Shown piece by piece: positions 2,248-14,142 of a stretch of 64,000 bases of DNA (the first letter of the stretch is position 1; the number at the start of each line of letters is the position of its first letter). Source of the DNA: Acidipropionibacterium virtanenii (lineage in GTDB: Bacteria > Actinomycetota > Actinomycetes > Propionibacteriales > Propionibacteriaceae); NCBI RefSeq assembly GCF_003325455.1, contig NZ_CP025198.1, positions 930,001 through 994,000 of the forward strand, read 5' to 3'. Made by a program: the position numbers and the translations under genes. The notes beneath the pieces are model-generated. The model was not told the origin of the DNA, searched no databases, and saw only the letters and a program-made list of their open reading frames with translations.

Positions 2248-3285
2248 CTACGCTCCTACTAGTGTTGGAACCAAATCACGCACAAATTCCGCCACGTCAT
2301 CTGTCTCCAGGTCAAGCGACCTTGCGGCTGCGGAGATTGTGACCTTGTTTGCTGATCCGAACATGACTTTGCGAAGCAGCTGTGAGCTCTCCGCCGATAT
2401 ACCCCCAGGCTCCGAAGATCGATATCCGCGGTCTGAAAGTTCTATGCACGTGGTTCGGTATTGCCAGTCACTGAGAAGATTTAGCTCATGAAGACGGTGC
2501 GTCATGGCCATTGCGGACACTTTCCAGAAGGAGCGAGCTGCCAAAATTCGATCGATGCTGGCGGCGCGCATGGACTGAGACAGTACCCTGGAACTCGGCA
2601 TCAGGAAGTTTGCAGCGAACTCATTTGCCTGTGCTTCTCGTTCCTTGGATGAACTCGGATCCATGTCTTGTTCGCCGTGCAAGACGAGGTGGCCGAGTTC
2701 ATGAGCGGCGTCAAAGCGCTGACGCTCTGCTGATCGGGAGGTATTTAGAAATACGTAAGGGATGCTATCTCGGAAGAAGCAGAACGCATCAATGTCCGTG
2801 TACTCATGACCCAAGGCAGCTACGCGCACGCCTTTAGCTTCCAATAGGTGGATCATATTGGCAACTGGACGGTCGCCGAGCTCCCATCGGTGGCGCACCA
2901 GTTCGGCGGCCTCTGCGGGGGCAAGCTTATCTAGAGATGGGATTTCAGGTTCTGGCAAGCGAAATCTCGTCGCGACAGTCCCGAAGAACTGTACCGTCAG
3001 ACTTGCGTTGGCGAGTACGGCGTCGCGTCTCGTGGCTGATGTTTTGCTGAGTTTGCGGAAGCTAGCGGCCGCGACGGGGATTGTCTCGACAGTTTCACGT
3101 GAGAAAAATGTCGACGGAACAGACAAAGCGGACGCGAGCTTATCTAAGTTCTCTGTGTTCGGAGGCTGCCTTCCGTTCTCATAGCTGGTCAGAGAGCGGA
3201 GCGACACCCCACTCTGTTCAGCGAGCTTGGTCAGTGTAAGTGCGCGACGCTTTCGCGCCAATCGGAGCTGTGAAGGATTGAACAT
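2248..3285 (-). CDS. XRE-family HTH regulator fused to an ImmA/IrrE metallopeptidase
   Basis: The protein has 345 residues. Residues ~5-60 form a Cro/C1-type helix-turn-helix (LAEQSGVSLRSLTSYENGRQ). Residues ~150-240 are an ImmA/IrrE (DUF955) peptidase with the zinc motif HELGH in FDAAHELGHLVLHGEQ and a distal Glu in a KEREAQANEFAANFLMP segment. Proteins of this kind cleave or sense a repressor and control mobile elements; in Bacillus ICEBs1, ImmA cleaves ImmR to switch on transfer. Here both functions are on one chain. The gene follows 3303-3956 with a 17-bp gap, so the two are an operon. It probably regulates the element and perhaps the downstream RexAB-like pair. The zinc ligands look intact. 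Confidence 0.88.
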   Translation of the reverse strand: MFNPSQLRLARKRRALTLTKLAEQSGVSLRSLTSYENGRQPPNTENLDKLASALSVPSTFFSRETVETIPVAAASFRKLSKTSATRRDAVLANASLTVQFFGTVATRFRLPEPEIPSLDKLAPAEAAELVRHRWELGDRPVANMIHLLEAKGVRVAALGHEYTDIDAFCFFRDSIPYVFLNTSRSAERQRFDAAHELGHLVLHGEQDMDPSSSKEREAQANEFAANFLMPSSRVLSQSMRAASIDRILAARSFWKVSAMAMTHRLHELNLLSDWQYRTTCIELSDRGYRSSEPGGISAESSQLLRKVMFGSANKVTISAAARSLDLETDDVAEFVRDLVPTLVGA

Positions 3286-3302
3286 TGTCGTTAGTAAGTC
3301 GG

Positions 3303-3956
3303 TTAGAGCGGTTCGACATTCACGTCAATGTCGCCGTCGTCGGAGTGGTCGAATACGGTGAGGTCGCCATCGAGATCTAGAAATTTGATCAGAATCCTGT
3401 CGCTCCAGTCTGTGATCCGTCCGCTCTCTGTCATCACAGCAGGGCGCGAGAGCTCAAGATTCATCCCGCGTTCGGTACGTTCGTGTATGAGCAGCCACAA
3501 GGGAGCGGCCTCCGTTGCGGCAACCAGTTTCTTTTCTTGAACGATATCCGGCACTTCGAACAAAGATGCGGTTTTGTTTCCTGATTGATCAAGCGAGCTA
3601 CGGGTAGCATCGCCCTTGCGGCGGGTATAAGGCTGCTTCCTGCGATCCGGGTTCGCGACATCCACACCTGAGGCAATCGTGAATGCCATGATTCTGTCGG
3701 GATGCAACAGTCGTGGTTGGTGGTCGATGTACACAAGATCCCATCCACGTTCAACGAGCAGACGGTTGAGCTGCTCCATGCCGTCATGGTAGATGTCAGT
3801 TCCGGGGGTAGAGCGCAAGGCCAGCGAGGTACGGTTCGCGGCCCTGGTTAAGCCGGGACGCATGCCCATGTGGATCAGTTCGGTGGACAATCCAAACTGG
3901 GCGAGCCGTTGCTCGTCGCTGGGCGGGCTGAGCGGGACTAGTGTCGCGACGGTCAC
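3303..3956 (-). CDS. hypothetical protein, operon partner of the XRE-ImmA protein
   Basis: This 217-residue soluble protein starts with GTG at 3956 behind GAAAGGAG. I do not recognise a family. The middle part (MEQLNRLLVERGWDLVYIDH, RIMAFTIASGVDVANPDRRK) looks globular and the C-terminus is acidic. It sits 17 bp upstream of the ImmA/IrrE gene on the same strand. Unknown genes beside XRE-ImmA proteins are common on mobile elements; some act as the protease target or as a toxin-like partner. Either role is possible here and neither is shown. The start is preceded by an imperfect dyad (ACCGCA...TGTGGT) near 3990-4003, which may be its operator. Confidence 0.7.
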   Translation of the reverse strand: MTVATLVPLSPPSDEQRLAQFGLSTELIHMGMRPGLTRAANRTSLALRSTPGTDIYHDGMEQLNRLLVERGWDLVYIDHQPRLLHPDRIMAFTIASGVDVANPDRRKQPYTRRKGDATRSSLDQSGNKTASLFEVPDIVQEKKLVAATEAAPLWLLIHERTERGMNLELSRPAVMTESGRITDWSDRILIKFLDLDGDLTVFDHSDDGDIDVNVEPL

Positions 3957-4349
3957 GGGGTCTCCTTTCGACCAGATGCGTGTAATGCTACCACAAGTGC
4001 GGTCAAAAAACGCGCAACAGCCCTCCAGGTTGGATCAAGCGAGTAGGGGCCCATCGACGTTGCCCTCTGAGGCATGGGCCTCAACGGGCAGCGGGCTTGA
4101 CGGAGTGGTAGTCCGCGAGAATGGCAGAGCAGCGTTGCTGGCAAGTTGCTCGCGTAGCGGAGGGCGGCTTTCTGGCGGGGCACCTGGCTGTCACGACTTT
4201 CCGATCGGGGGGTGCGTGCGGGTGTCTGACGGGTAGAATGGCTCGTGAGGCACGTCCTCTATCTGCGGGTCCTCCGGGACAGCCCTCACGGGTGCTCATC
4301 ACACAAGTTGCCTCCTCGATGGAGTACTACGTGTGACGAGAGGCCGATC
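3957..4349. other. non-coding stretch upstream of the XRE-ImmA operon
   Basis: About 390 bp separate the divergent starts at 3956 (minus) and 4350 (plus). Read on the minus strand, a TTGACC hexamer, an ACCGCACTTGTGGT imperfect dyad and a TA-rich TAGCATTACA stretch lie 15-50 bp before the GTG, and are a plausible promoter-operator. The open frames crossing this stretch have no recognisable protein features, and I see no RNA gene. Confidence 0.4.
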
Positions 4350-4688
4350 ATGCTTTGCGTTCTCTGGGCGGCGAGTGTCCGAACTCGGGATCTCACCCGC
4401 CGCTACCTTCCCACCAACATCCTGCTGGACTTCATCCGGACCAGGCGCGGCCTCAAGTGGGGCCTCCCAGCCATGCTTCTTGCTGTCCCGTACCTTGCGG
4501 TAGTGGTGTGGTGTGCGCGTTCAGTTGCCGATGGGGGCCCGGGCTGGTTGAACCTGATCATCCTTGTGGCTGCCTGGAACGCCATGAAGTTCATCGTCAT
4601 GGGGCCGGTGAGCGTTCTGACGCTGGGTCGCAGGCGGTGGCTCGAACGGTCCGCGCGTCGGGGAGCCCTACCTATGCCAACGCGCTGA
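4350..4688 (+). CDS. small membrane protein of the family often labelled sulfate permease
   Basis: I place the start at ATG 4350, where GAGAGG stands just upstream, giving 112 residues. A longer frame from 4245 has no ribosome site and an unlikely N-terminus. The sequence runs TRRYLPTNILLDFIRTRRGL, then a hydrophobic helix (LPAMLLAVPYLAVVVWC), a GPGWLNL turn and a second helix (WNAMKFIVMGPVSVLTL). This arrangement is common in small actinobacterial proteins that databases call sulfate permease on weak grounds. They are often found on plasmids and islands. Two helices are too few for a true SulP transporter, so the function is unknown. Confidence 0.65.
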   Translation: MLCVLWAASVRTRDLTRRYLPTNILLDFIRTRRGLKWGLPAMLLAVPYLAVVVWCARSVADGGPGWLNLIILVAAWNAMKFIVMGPVSVLTLGRRRWLERSARRGALPMPTR

Positions 4689-4723
4689 ACGCCGCGTAGT
4701 GCTTTCTGCGAACGCCCTGCCAT

Positions 4724-5203
4724 CTATGCCGAGCCCACCAGGTGTCGGTTCCGTCCTCGGGGACGAATGGTGACTCCCTTGGCGCTGATCGCGCGGCGAA
4801 CGGCCTGAGCGCTGGCTCCGTAACGTTGGCCAACTTCAGCGAGCGTCAGCCCGCCCTCATAGAGGCGGATCGCCTCTGCGATGTGCTCGTTCGCCAGGCC
4901 GCGCACGCGGATGGTGATGCCCCTGTGCTCAAGGTGCCGGGCGACGGTGTGACGATGGATCTCAAGCTTCTCCGCGATCTGCCCAATCGGCATCCCATCC
5001 TCGTATAGGTCCACCAAGTCGTCGATCTGCTGCGCGGTGAGAAAAGTTTGAGCCGTCTCAATCGCGCGTACGTTCGGGCCGCGGAGGTCCGTCAGCGAGG
5101 GTCCAGCGGCTCGCTCGACACGGGCATAGTGACCCCTCGACCAGCGGAAAGACAGGGTTTGGGCAGCGGAGGAAAAGTTCTCAAACTCTCTACGCAGGTG
5201 CAC
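4724..5203 (-). CDS. helix-turn-helix protein with two tandem HTH repeats, recombinase-tail-like
   Basis: The protein has 159 residues. Residues ~55-95 (TAQQIDDLVDLYEDGMPIGQ, IAEKLEIHRHTVARHLEHRG) and ~100-145 (HIAEAIRLYEGGLTLAEVGQ, RYGASAQAVRRAISAKGVTI) are two resolvase/Hin-type HTH units. The ending (IRPRGRNR) is typical. Such proteins are usually encoded beside serine recombinases or tyrosine integrases on actinobacterial elements. The first ~45 residues do not look like a normal N-terminus, and no good ribosome site stands before 5203. The gene may therefore be a truncated product whose true start lies inside, or the tail of a lost recombinase gene. It converges on the small membrane protein with a 35-bp gap. 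Confidence 0.6.
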   Translation of the reverse strand: MHLRREFENFSSAAQTLSFRWSRGHYARVERAAGPSLTDLRGPNVRAIETAQTFLTAQQIDDLVDLYEDGMPIGQIAEKLEIHRHTVARHLEHRGITIRVRGLANEHIAEAIRLYEGGLTLAEVGQRYGASAQAVRRAISAKGVTIRPRGRNRHLVGSA

Positions 5204-5400
5204 CCACTGATGCGCCTCTGACTATGGCAGGAACCGGTTCCCATCCGAAGCGATGGGAAGATTGAGGGATTCTCCTTTCCCGACCGGTCCTCTCCAGGTG
5301 ATCCCCGATGAGGGGAACAGGCCATGAGCTCAACCACCACAACCACCTGCGATATGCAGTTGCTCAGGCTGTACTTAGACATGGAGGACGCCCGCCGTGC

Positions 5401-5918
5401 CGCCGTCCGGGCTTGTTGTCGCCGGGGATGACGATCGAGTCAACGCGGCAGACGCCTGGTCTGCGCAACGCGTCACGGGCGCGGATCTTCCGAGAAGCCG
5501 GGATCATGGAGCAGTGGGGCACCGGCGTCCAGCGCGTCTTCGGTAGGAGCGCAGAGGTCAGGGCTGCCCACCTCGAGTTCGAGCGGATTCATGACCGCGT
5601 CACAGGGACGATCCGTATTGAGCACCATAGGGCGCAACTTGTAGTTCAGAATCATGACTACACGAATAGCAATGATGGTAGGCATGAAGTAGTCATGTTG
5701 AGCGCAGCTGTCAATGGACCCGTGCACCGGAACGATCTGCTTGCTGCTGGGCTGCAGCCGCTGTCGCAGAACTACTCCCGGCACATCGTCCCGTTCATCG
5801 ACGGGGGCTGCTGGAGATGACCCTGCCGGAGAAGTCCCGAAGCAAAGCGCAAGGGTGCCGGTTGACCGAGTCGGGTCGGATGTGCCTCCAGCACAGGAAA
5901 GACGCACCAGGCCGATAA
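5401..5918 (+). pseudogene. remnant of an AlbA_2/Schlafen-type ATP-binding protein (COG2865), frameshifted
   Basis: The peptide around 5413-5541 contains TPGLRNASRARIFREAGIME followed by QWGTGVQRVF, the C-terminal hallmark of RecG-like ATP-binding proteins with an AlbA_2 domain (consensus RNP..ARIF.E.G..E.WG.G..R). The ATP-binding N-terminus is absent. The frame then hits a TGA at 5818. Dropping one base at the G run 5803-5807 restores a normal family ending (LLEMTLPEKSRSKAQGCRLT) that stops at 5918. So there is a 5' truncation plus a one-base frameshift in a homopolymer. The next gene, 14 bp on, is a pglZ fragment, so this ATPase was probably part of a BREX locus. Confidence 0.65.
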
Positions 5919-5932
5919 ATTTGTTCGGTTGC

Positions 5933-6163
5933 GTGCTTCCGCCTCTGGCGGAGGAGTTCGCGCACCGAAGTCTGGTGTTCCGGCATGATCCCGGCCGCGA
6001 CTACGCCGACGAGCTGTCCAGCATCGACATCCCCGACTTCTCCGTGGTCGCGGTCGCCGATGATGAGTACACGCTCAAGTACCGGATGCTCCATGAGGAG
6101 CCGGACCCCAAATTCCTCACCTACCGCCGGGGTACTGTGCCGGAGGGGCCCAGGGACGGATGA
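5933..6163 (+). pseudogene. pglZ: truncated BREX pglZ (N-terminal ~75 residues only)
   Basis: From GTG 5933 the frame encodes a stretch including FAHRSLVFRHDPGRDYADEL, then VAVADDEYTLKYRMLHEEPD and KFLTYRRGTVPEG. This is the N-terminal signature of BREX PglZ (a phosphatase-like protein of the alkaline phosphatase superfamily, required for BREX phage resistance), which normally reads VFWHDPEG..Y..EL and EPD.KFLVYR.GPVP. The frame stops at 6163, exactly where a NWLLDLEL motif should follow, and 14 bp from the end of a chromosomal SDR gene. A full PglZ is about 800-900 residues, so over 90% has been deleted. The junction near 6160 is a likely edge of the island. Confidence 0.72.
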
Positions 6164-6176
6164 TGCCAGACGCCCA

Positions 6177-7082
6177 CTACTGCGCGGCGCAGATGCCCAG
6201 CAGTGATTCGGTGGCCCCCCAGAGGCGTGCCGCGTCGCCGAGATCCGTGAGGGAGGAGAACGGCGTCCGCTTCACTGCGGGGCCAGCCGTCTCCGACCAT
6301 CGTGACGGCGCCCACATGCAGGACTCGCGTGAGGCAAGTGCGGCGAGCGCGGGCCCGGCCGCCTGAGCCGGTGGATTCCCGAGGGTTCGCTCGGCCCAGT
6401 GGACCATGCCGGCGGGAAACATCCGCCGCAGTCGCGGTGCGATCCCGGAGCCTGGCACCACCCCCGGGTGAGCCAGCCCGGCGGAGATTCCCCACCCATG
6501 GTCCTGGCTGCGCCGAGCCAGTTCCACAGTGCTGAGGCCGAGCGCGACCTTGGACTGGCTGTATGCGGTGAAGGAGCGATAGCCGGTCTCGCCCTGGAGG
6601 TTCTCCCAGTGGATGCGGCCCCGGTCGGCGGCCAGGCTCACCTGCGCGACGACACGTGCCGAGCCGGCGCGCAGCAAGCGCATGATCGCTGTGATCAGTG
6701 CGATGTGGCCCAGGTAGTTCGCCTGGAAAGTTGCCTCGAAGCCGTCGACAGTGACCTCACGCGGTCCCTCCGCCAGCCGCACGACACCCGCGTTCAGCAT
6801 CGCGAGATGGATCGGCTCGCCGCACTTGCGCAGCTGCGCGCTCAAGGCTCGCACGGATGCCAGACTTTCGAGATCGAGACTGAACAGTTTGATGTCGGCC
6901 CCTGGAAACTCCGCCCGCAGGGTCGCGGCGGTGATCTCGCCCCTCGTACGGTTGTGCACCGGAATCAGAAGCCGGGCGCCACCTGCGGCGAGGCCGCGCG
7001 AGATCCCGAGTCCGATGCCGCCATTCCCGCCGGTGATGAGCGCGGTCTTCCCGCGGAAGGTCACCGGATCCATGGGACCCAT
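6177..7082 (-). CDS. short-chain dehydrogenase/reductase (retinol dehydrogenase-like)
   Basis: The start at ATG 7082 is chosen because GGAGG stands 8 nt upstream; a longer frame to 7148 adds 22 basic residues and overlaps the promoter region. The 301-residue protein has the NAD(P) motif TGGNGGIG at ~17-24, NAG (AMLNAGVVRL) near 95, and the catalytic YSQSK near 170. These are the classical SDR features. The arrangement and the long C-terminal part after the PG motif (AHPGVVPGSG) fit the oxidoreductase/retinol-dehydrogenase group. The substrate is unknown. It is divergent from the SnoaL-like gene at 7166, so the two may be co-regulated from the 83-bp gap. It borders the BREX remnant. Confidence 0.85.
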   Translation of the reverse strand: MGPMDPVTFRGKTALITGGNGGIGLGISRGLAAGGARLLIPVHNRTRGEITAATLRAEFPGADIKLFSLDLESLASVRALSAQLRKCGEPIHLAMLNAGVVRLAEGPREVTVDGFEATFQANYLGHIALITAIMRLLRAGSARVVAQVSLAADRGRIHWENLQGETGYRSFTAYSQSKVALGLSTVELARRSQDHGWGISAGLAHPGVVPGSGIAPRLRRMFPAGMVHWAERTLGNPPAQAAGPALAALASRESCMWAPSRWSETAGPAVKRTPFSSLTDLGDAARLWGATESLLGICAAQ

Positions 7083-7165
7083 GCTAATGATCCTCCGGCG
7101 CGGCCGGCGGCTTGGAACCCTGACACCCGCCTCATAGGCTGGTGTCACCGACGTAGGAGGCTCAG

Positions 7166-11790: not shown

Positions 11791-14142
11791 ATGACTGGAC
11801 AGACACCGCAGGAGCTCACCGGCCGGGCGGGCTGGATCACCGTCGAAGGCGCGCGCACGAACAACCTGAGGAGCGTCTCGGTGCGGGTGCCAAAGCACCG
11901 GATCACGGTGTTCACCGGCGTCTCCGGATCGGGGAAGTCGTCGCTGGCCTTCGGCACGATCGCCGCGGAGGCCCAGCGGCTGGTGGCGGACTCCTATCCG
12001 CTGTTCGTGCGCAACCGGCTGCGACGGATCGGGCGCGCAGACGTCGATCGCGTCGACGGGCTGATGTTCACCACGGTGGTGGACCAGCGGCCGTTCACCG
12101 GCAACGCCCGCTCGACGGTGGGAACGGCCACCGACATCGCCCCGCTGCTGCGCATGCTGTTCTCCCGCATCGGGGCGCCCTCGGCCGGCTACTCCCCGGC
12201 CTACTCGTTCAACGACCCGTCCGGCATGTGCCCGGCCTGCGAGGGCCTGGGGACGGTCGACGACATCGACCTGGACGCCCTGCTGGACCGGACGAAGAGC
12301 CTCAACGAGGGCGCCATCCGCTTCTCGACGTTCAGGCCGGGCACCTACCGGTGGAAGCGCATGGTGCACTCGGGTCTCGTCGATCCCGACGTGCCGCTGT
12401 CCCAGCTGCCCGAGGCCGACCTGCACACCCTGCTGCATGCCGAGGACCTGCCCCTGGAGCACCCCGACCCGCAGTACCCGAAGTCCAGCAACTTCGACGG
12501 CGTCATTCCCAGACTGCGCGACTCCTATCTGCGCAGGACGCCGTCCCACCTCACCGAGGACATCAAGGAGGGGCTGGCCCGCATCGTCACCCGGCGCGTC
12601 TGCCCGGAGTGCGGCGGCGCACGCCTCAACGCCGCCGCGCGGTCGAGTCTCATCGACGGGCGCTCGATCGCCGACTGGCAGGAGATGCCGATCGGCGAGC
12701 TACGGCCGGTCGTCTCCCGGGTCCACGACGCCCGCGTGACCCCGCTGGTAGAGGCGATCGGGGAGCGCTGCGCGGCAATGGATGCGGTCGGGCTGGGCTA
12801 TCTGAGTCTGGACCGCCTCTCGACGACGCTGTCGGGCGGGGAGGCCCAGCGCGTGAAGATCGTCCGCCACCTCGGCAGCGCCCTGAGCGACGTCTGCTAT
12901 GTCTTCGACGAGCCCAGCGCCGGTCTGCACCCCCACGACGTCCACCGGCTCCTCGCGCTGCTGGCCCGGCTGCGCGACGCCCACAACACCGTTCTGGTCG
13001 TCGAGCACCATCCCGCCGTCATCGCCGCCGCCGACCATGTCGTCGACCTGGGGCCGGGCGCGGGGACGGCCGGGGGACGGATCCAGTTCCAGGGCCCGCC
13101 ACGGGCCCTCGCACGCTCCACGACCATGACCGGCCGGATGCTGCGCGATCCTGTCCGGCTCAACACCCGGCCACGCCCGCCTACCGGGAGGGTCACTATT
13201 GAGCACGCGAGGATGCACAACCTGCGCGACGTCACCGTTGACGTGCCGCTCGGCGTCCTCACCGCGGTGTCCGGGGTCGCCGGATCGGGAAAGAGCAGCC
13301 TGATGGCCGACGAGCTCGTCCGCCAGCACACGGAATTCGCCCTCATCGGCCAGGAACCGCTGCACGGCGGCGGCAGGTCCACGCCCGCCACGGTGATGGG
13401 CGTCGCCGAGCCCGTCCGCGACGCATTCGCCGCCGCGACCGGCATGGCGCCCTCCTGGTTCAGCGCCAACGGACGCGGCGGCTGCCAGGCATGCAGGGGC
13501 AGGGGCGTCGTCACCACCGATCTCGCCTTCCTCGACGACGTCGTCACCACCTGCGAGGCCTGCGGCGGCTCACGCTTCAACCCGACCGCGCTGGCCGCGA
13601 CCCTGGACGGGCAGACCATCGCCGACGTGCTGGCCATGAACGCCGGCCGGGCCGCGGAGTTGATGGCCTCCGACGCCCGGATCTCCGGGCGGCTGGGATG
13701 GCTGGAGGACGTGGGGCTCGGCTATCTGGCCATCGGGCAGGGCGCCGACACCCTGTCGGGAGGGGAGCGCCAACGGCTCCTGCTGGCCCGCCACCTCGCC
13801 GACACCCCGGCGGCCTCGCGACTGCGCATCGTCCTGGACGAGCCCACCGCAGGCCTGCACGGGGCAGACATCGACCGACTCCTCGTGCTGTTCGACCGGC
13901 TCGTCGACGAGGGGGCCACGATCATCGCGATCGAGCACAACCTGCGCGTCATCGCCCACGCCGACCACGTCATCGACATCGGCCCGGGAGCCGGGCACGA
14001 GGGCGGCACCGTCGTCCACGAGGGACCGCCCGCGGACCTGACGACGGCGGCGCGCTCCCTGACCGGCAGATACCTCCGCAGGACCCTGCCGACTCCCCTC
14101 CGGCCCGTGCAGCTCGCCGACCGGACAGGATCCCGGTCATGA
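11791..14142 (+). CDS. UvrA-like ABC protein (short UvrA2/DrrC type)
   Basis: The protein has 783 residues against ~950 for housekeeping UvrA, and carries two ABC ATPase halves. The first has Walker A GVSGSGKSSLAF near residue 50 and LSGGEAQRVK near 350. The second has GVAGSGKSS near 490 and LSGGERQRLL near 655. Zinc CxxC motifs occur at CPACEGLG, CPECGG, CQACRG and CEACGG. A UvrB-binding domain appears shortened. Such paralogues act in resistance to DNA-binding drugs (DrrC in Streptomyces peucetius) or have accessory repair roles. It is divergent from a WYL regulator with a shared operator, so it is probably induced by damage or drug. Whether it works with UvrB is unclear. Confidence 0.88.
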   Translation: MTGQTPQELTGRAGWITVEGARTNNLRSVSVRVPKHRITVFTGVSGSGKSSLAFGTIAAEAQRLVADSYPLFVRNRLRRIGRADVDRVDGLMFTTVVDQRPFTGNARSTVGTATDIAPLLRMLFSRIGAPSAGYSPAYSFNDPSGMCPACEGLGTVDDIDLDALLDRTKSLNEGAIRFSTFRPGTYRWKRMVHSGLVDPDVPLSQLPEADLHTLLHAEDLPLEHPDPQYPKSSNFDGVIPRLRDSYLRRTPSHLTEDIKEGLARIVTRRVCPECGGARLNAAARSSLIDGRSIADWQEMPIGELRPVVSRVHDARVTPLVEAIGERCAAMDAVGLGYLSLDRLSTTLSGGEAQRVKIVRHLGSALSDVCYVFDEPSAGLHPHDVHRLLALLARLRDAHNTVLVVEHHPAVIAAADHVVDLGPGAGTAGGRIQFQGPPRALARSTTMTGRMLRDPVRLNTRPRPPTGRVTIEHARMHNLRDVTVDVPLGVLTAVSGVAGSGKSSLMADELVRQHTEFALIGQEPLHGGGRSTPATVMGVAEPVRDAFAAATGMAPSWFSANGRGGCQACRGRGVVTTDLAFLDDVVTTCEACGGSRFNPTALAATLDGQTIADVLAMNAGRAAELMASDARISGRLGWLEDVGLGYLAIGQGADTLSGGERQRLLLARHLADTPAASRLRIVLDEPTAGLHGADIDRLLVLFDRLVDEGATIIAIEHNLRVIAHADHVIDIGPGAGHEGGTVVHEGPPADLTTAARSLTGRYLRRTLPTPLRPVQLADRTGSRS

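Follow-up and report, generated by a model that had tools for sequence, protein, structure and literature searches.

Two truncated pseudogenes lie next to each other in Acidipropionibacterium virtanenii, and we consider, with a probability of about 0.94, that they are the dead remnant of a BREX type 1 operon in which a Schlafen-type accessory gene stood directly before pglZ. They were located in a window of 64,000 nucleotides (NZ_CP025198.1, positions 930,001 to 994,000 of the forward strand). Coordinates are those of the window unless given as genome positions. The genome consists of one contig of 3,432,872 bases, with a completeness of 100. The features are as follows.

~5344..5918, + strand: C-terminal remnant of a Schlafen/AlbA_2-HATPase_c_4-winged-helix gene, with a TAA stop at 5916-5918 (Pfam, blastx).
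5915..5918, + strand: degenerate 4-base stop/start overlap, ATAA against ATGA or GTGA in intact operons (in-register alignment).
5915..6147, + strand: pglZ remnant, about residues 1-77 of ~831 (PADLOC profile, alignments to relatives).
6148..6176, no strand assigned: junction from the pglZ break to the 3′ end of the SDR gene; the open frame continues to a stop ending at 6163 (open reading frame list and sequence).
6177-7148, 3′ end toward the relic: SDR gene, inside a variable stretch.

N-terminal fragment of PglZ

The translation of the frame at 5915-6163 matched the PADLOC PglZ profile with an E value of 6.1e-13, over profile positions 9-80 of 855, and the pglZ assignment that a first-pass annotation had made from the letters alone thus held in a profile search. 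A Pfam scan of the same frame gave no match. The fragment was 61% identical to residues 6-77 of the 831-aa full-length PglZ of the congener G003. It followed five aligned relatives as far as GTVPEG and stopped directly before the conserved (N/D)WLLDLELAYG, which is exactly where the first-pass annotation had placed the break, before an expected NWLLDLEL. About 9% of pglZ is left in the window. The assignment to type 1 PglZ applies to the N-terminal ~77 residues only; a complete pglZ with its catalytic region is absent, as the fragment ends at about residue 77 and the genome has no further PglZ match. According to the part of PMC12205998 drawn on here, PglZ is a metal-dependent nuclease, T538 and H741 are residues of the catalytic region of E. 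fergusonii PglZ, and both defence and methylation are said to fail when pglZ is deleted.

A 149-codon ORF at 5714-6163, which runs through the AlbA_2 tail in a wrong frame before entering the pglZ fragment, is a candidate for a gene-caller report. When the relic was used as a DNA query, no plasmid relatives were found and none of the phage records searched gave a match. A protein search of plasmids with the PglZ part returned 12 records, all below 60% identity.

C-terminal fragment of a Schlafen/AlbA_2 ATPase

The middle of the open frame at 5308-5820 (+) matched HATPase_c_4 of Pfam with an E value of 5.6e-9, over profile positions 18-86 of 89. This open frame is the frame of the AlbA_2 remnant up to a frameshift. 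When positions 4700-6000 of the window were compared by blastx with three intact Schlafen/AlbA_2 relatives (498-549 aa), the best match reached 48% over 178 aligned positions, and a further 35 aligned positions, belonging to the winged-helix tail, followed in another frame after the frameshift near 5790-5810. The remnant begins at about residue 286-304 of the 498-aa relative L148, with the N-terminal ~290 residues absent, and secure similarity starts at a PGLL motif at about 5404. What is left is the C-terminal third of the protein, with one frameshift. In the three intact relatives scanned, SLFN_AlbA_2 (PF04326) is N-terminal and HATPase_c_4 lies further on. The window is without an SLFN_AlbA_2 domain; only HATPase_c_4 from profile position 18 and the winged-helix tail remain. 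Both the profile and the blastx result agree with the first-pass description of an AlbA_2-type ATPase that has lost its N-terminus, the AlbA_2 domain itself being assigned through the full-length relatives. A putative foreign N-terminus, fused to the AlbA_2 piece from 5324, had no relatives on plasmids and gave only chance-level matches in the loci compared. A protein search of plasmids with the AlbA_2 part found no relatives.

The AlbA_2-pglZ operon in relatives

A search of 198 genomes of the family with the pglZ fragment matched 19 genomes (own included) at 20 places. At five of the 19 other PglZ places, an AlbA_2 gene was found directly upstream of pglZ (stretches L036-L040). Three of the five (L037, L039 and L040) have brxB, brxC, pglX, AlbA_2, pglZ and brxL in succession, and brxA is also present in L037 and L040. 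The L036 stretch shows brxC onward, and L038 ends at the border of the stretch taken. A separate contig scan covered 64 named PglZ loci, several of them from the same genomes as the family set, so that the two sets overlap. AlbA_2 was directly upstream on the same strand in 11 of the 64 loci, and all 11 had an ATGA or GTGA overlap with pglZ. The upstream AlbA_2 frames had 481-549 codons in nine of them, 168 codons in L145 and 112 codons in L151.

Counted from the match, the PglZ frame had 813 codons or more in 61 of the 64 loci, and short pglZ is thus not a gene conserved as such, a check that had been proposed for this locus. The exceptions were L136 (538 codons), L138 (518 codons, running off the stretch) and L109 (125 codons). 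L109 comes from a MAG, and the rest of its PglZ continues in another frame, an apparent frameshift or error.

The remnant is in register with the overlap of the intact loci. Like BREX-linked accessory genes, it stands directly upstream of pglZ and shares a stop/start overlap with it, altered here to ATAA; the AlbA_2 stop is kept and the pglZ start is lost. The in-register overlap is better evidence of an original AlbA_2-pglZ operon than any spacing would be, and such an operon is well supported by the alignment. The first-pass annotation had suggested the operon from gene order and a spacing of 14 bp. The operon stands, on the 4-base overlap; the 14 bp is only the gap to the SDR gene.

Some AlbA_2 proteins of this family are encoded beside an AbiEi gene, with no PglZ match, so the AlbA_2 fragment by itself would not prove BREX. 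One case is genome G056 (L073:11460-13552), which has no match to the PglZ fragment and encodes an intact AlbA_2 family member next to an AbiEi-type gene.

Search for BREX elsewhere in the genome

A full-length PglZ query matched only this fragment in the whole 3.43-Mb genome. The BREX proteins queried besides PglZ were BrxC, PglX and BrxL (first 318 aa), and none of them gave a match in the whole genome; brxC, pglX and brxL, whose presence marks BREX type 1, were thus not found. A positive control was available for BrxC only: another BrxC query matched one of five genus members (G003, 73% identity) and gave no match in the own genome. The sole Pfam PglZ match, at genome positions 1939862-1940083, was rejected as a pglZ copy and belongs to a type I phosphodiesterase/nucleotide pyrophosphatase (PF01663, E 4e-39). 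With no second PglZ and no match to BrxC, BrxL or PglX, the first-pass claim that BREX is inactive here was supported. The relic should be inactive, and the expected function of the remnant should be none.

We infer a complete brxABC-pglX-AlbA_2-pglZ-brxL operon as the ancestor, which, judging from the literature on BREX, would have methylated host DNA and blocked phage. At least two deletions or recombinations would have taken away everything on the left up to and including the AlbA_2 N-terminus and, on the right, the rest of pglZ together with brxL. The remaining sequence would then have drifted.

Genomic context and origin of the relic

Thirteen bases separate the stop ending at 6163 from the last base of the SDR gene at 6177, and the 14 bp noted earlier is this distance. 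SDR relatives were found in 37 of the 198 genomes (own included) at E 1e-30 or better, all the others having at most 46% identity; none of four congeners passed E 1e-30. The SDR gene had been called chromosomal. This was not established, as it lies inside a variable stretch and is without a close relative in the four congeners. The congener G001, the one congener with both flanks for comparison, is syntenic through the tRNA-Lys gene to genome position 898136, and after a break synteny resumes at genome position 937149 (window 7149), beyond the SDR gene. The break near 6160, previously read as a deletion or recombination edge and also as the edge of the island, is therefore the edge of the relic and is not established as that of the island. 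The same site in G001 is occupied by 5.7 kb of DNA, most of it different.

The ~39 kb between the synteny blocks contain a large serine recombinase beside tRNA-Lys, a T4SS coupling protein, Prim-Pol, ParB, an ArdC-like protein, a TrwC relaxase and defence genes. Its gene content suggests that this island is a conjugative element, inserted at tRNA-Lys and carrying other defence genes. No convincing att repeats were found around tRNA-Lys and the right edge; large serine recombinases require just a short core, so a missing att repeat says little. The repeats flanking the relic were short or imperfect ones only. An RmrA/RmrT pair (window 2248-3956, − strand; PADLOC E 4.3e-132 and 9.5e-41) lies in the same element. 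Upstream of the window, at genome positions 920664-926861 (L007:5664-11861), the genes for an Eco57I-type methyltransferase and a T5orf172/ResIII-like protein stand side by side with a GmrSD_N gene (PADLOC HEC-05, E 3.2e-223), and the three probably form another defence cluster of the element. Positions 4233-4616 and about 5000-5212 of the window recur in many genomes of the family at a DNA identity of about 66-84%, and the 26 bases at 5034-5059, inside an HTH gene (4724-5203, − strand), were matched exactly in 11 of the matches listed.

The relic may be decayed cargo of the present element, or a previous occupant of the tRNA-Lys site may have carried BREX and left it behind, with the present conjugative element joining next to it later. 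We give the earlier occupant somewhat less than even odds. The two conserved parts of the element end at ~5212 among the matches listed, further right there are only separate AlbA_2 and PglZ matches, and the same site in the congener carries different DNA, all of which would fit a separate origin. However, ~5212 is the border of the conserved matches and need not be the right end of the element, and G056 has its intact AlbA_2 gene ~3 kb from element-type sequence. The choice touches the origin only, and the relic is dead under both readings.

Signs of decay

The marks of decay are the frameshift in AlbA_2, the loss of the pglZ start, whose position is occupied by an Ile codon, and a replaced motif residue, Arg standing for the Trp of the VFWHDP ((F/I)WHDP) motif that is kept in nine aligned relatives. 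Over 77 codons and with L036 as outgroup, the branch of the window had 21.5 changed-residue and 4.5 silent changes, and the branch of G003 had 11.5 and 11.5 (Fisher p 0.036, counts entered as 22, 5 and 12, 11). With L040 as outgroup, the figures were 21.5 and 6 for the window against 11.5 and 10 for G003 (Fisher p 0.13). These counts are weakly suggestive of relaxed constraint on the pglZ fragment. Its third-position G+C of 0.79 is still coding-like, so the decay would be recent or slight. The argument for pseudogenes is carried by the loss of length, start and frame.

The single AlbA_2 frameshift could be a sequencing error, which is a common cause of such frameshifts, and one of the 64 loci (L109) owes its short PglZ frame to an apparent frameshift. 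The truncations are not explicable in this way. That a misassembly hides two genes which the cell has intact is very improbable, since the genome is a single contig with full completeness, ~290 AlbA_2 residues and ~750 PglZ residues are lacking, and the PglZ query found the lost part of PglZ nowhere else in the genome. It is just as hard to credit that the two short frames, open over 170 and 149 codons, are real functional small genes, as the 149-codon frame passes out of frame through the AlbA_2 tail before it reaches the pglZ part, the pglZ start is gone and PglZ is full length in nearly all relatives.

Comparison with known systems

In BREX type 1 the genes are brxA-brxB-brxC-pglX-pglZ-brxL with a PglZ of type A, and the G003 PglZ to which the remnant was compared comes from such a locus. 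The remnant differs from it in the small part of pglZ retained and in the lack of matches to PglZ, BrxC, BrxL and PglX in the rest of the genome. A link between Schlafen proteins and BREX has already been published (PMC12839542). The part of that source drawn on here describes a BREX-linked Schlafen (SLFN_AlbA_2) protein with a minimal histidine-kinase-like ATPase and a winged helix, and proposes it as a backup RNase effector in BREX. The remnant shares this C-terminal domain order and likewise stands directly before pglZ, but it has lost the Schlafen domain, the proposed RNase.

Residues 1-96 of Salmonella PglZ are predicted to bind BrxB, according to the part of PMC12205998 drawn on here. 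The surviving PglZ piece, if still made, could conceivably occupy BrxB of a BREX system, in this host or in a new one, and weaken that system as an anti-BREX decoy derived from a pseudogene. We regard this as highly improbable. The only support for it is the position of the fragment in PglZ, close to the BrxB-binding N-terminal domain, and the lost start codon and lost domain end argue against it. If it were true, the element carrying the fragment would find easier entry into relatives that have BREX, for example the congener G003.

Breakage of the accessory gene in the family

In G003, an AlbA_2 N-terminal stub (L090:2765-2986) lies between the C-terminal part of pglX and an intact pglZ. About 13 kb downstream of this pglZ there is another AlbA_2 gene (L005, about 12175-13330), which has lost an internal segment. 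Besides the relic, three loci (G003/L090, L145 and L151) have a broken AlbA_2 before a full-length PglZ frame. Taken with the relic, they hint that the accessory Schlafen gene breaks repeatedly and is lost more readily than the BREX core.

The pglX of G003 is itself split (L004:9626-15832). One piece has 869 codons, a second partial copy of 392 codons is inverted, and the region also holds a tyrosine recombinase gene and a C-terminal piece that stands apart; the arrangement resembles that of a phase-variable pglX. L036 and L038 have related recombinases in the corresponding position, and L039 has pglX pieces in inverted orientation.

The BREX-1 relic described here is an ordinary case, and its value is mainly as a record of the parts of a lost system: BREX with a Schlafen accessory gene was once present in the lineage of this bacterium. 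Readier loss of the accessory gene would offer a cheap test of the proposal that the Schlafen protein is a costly backup effector.
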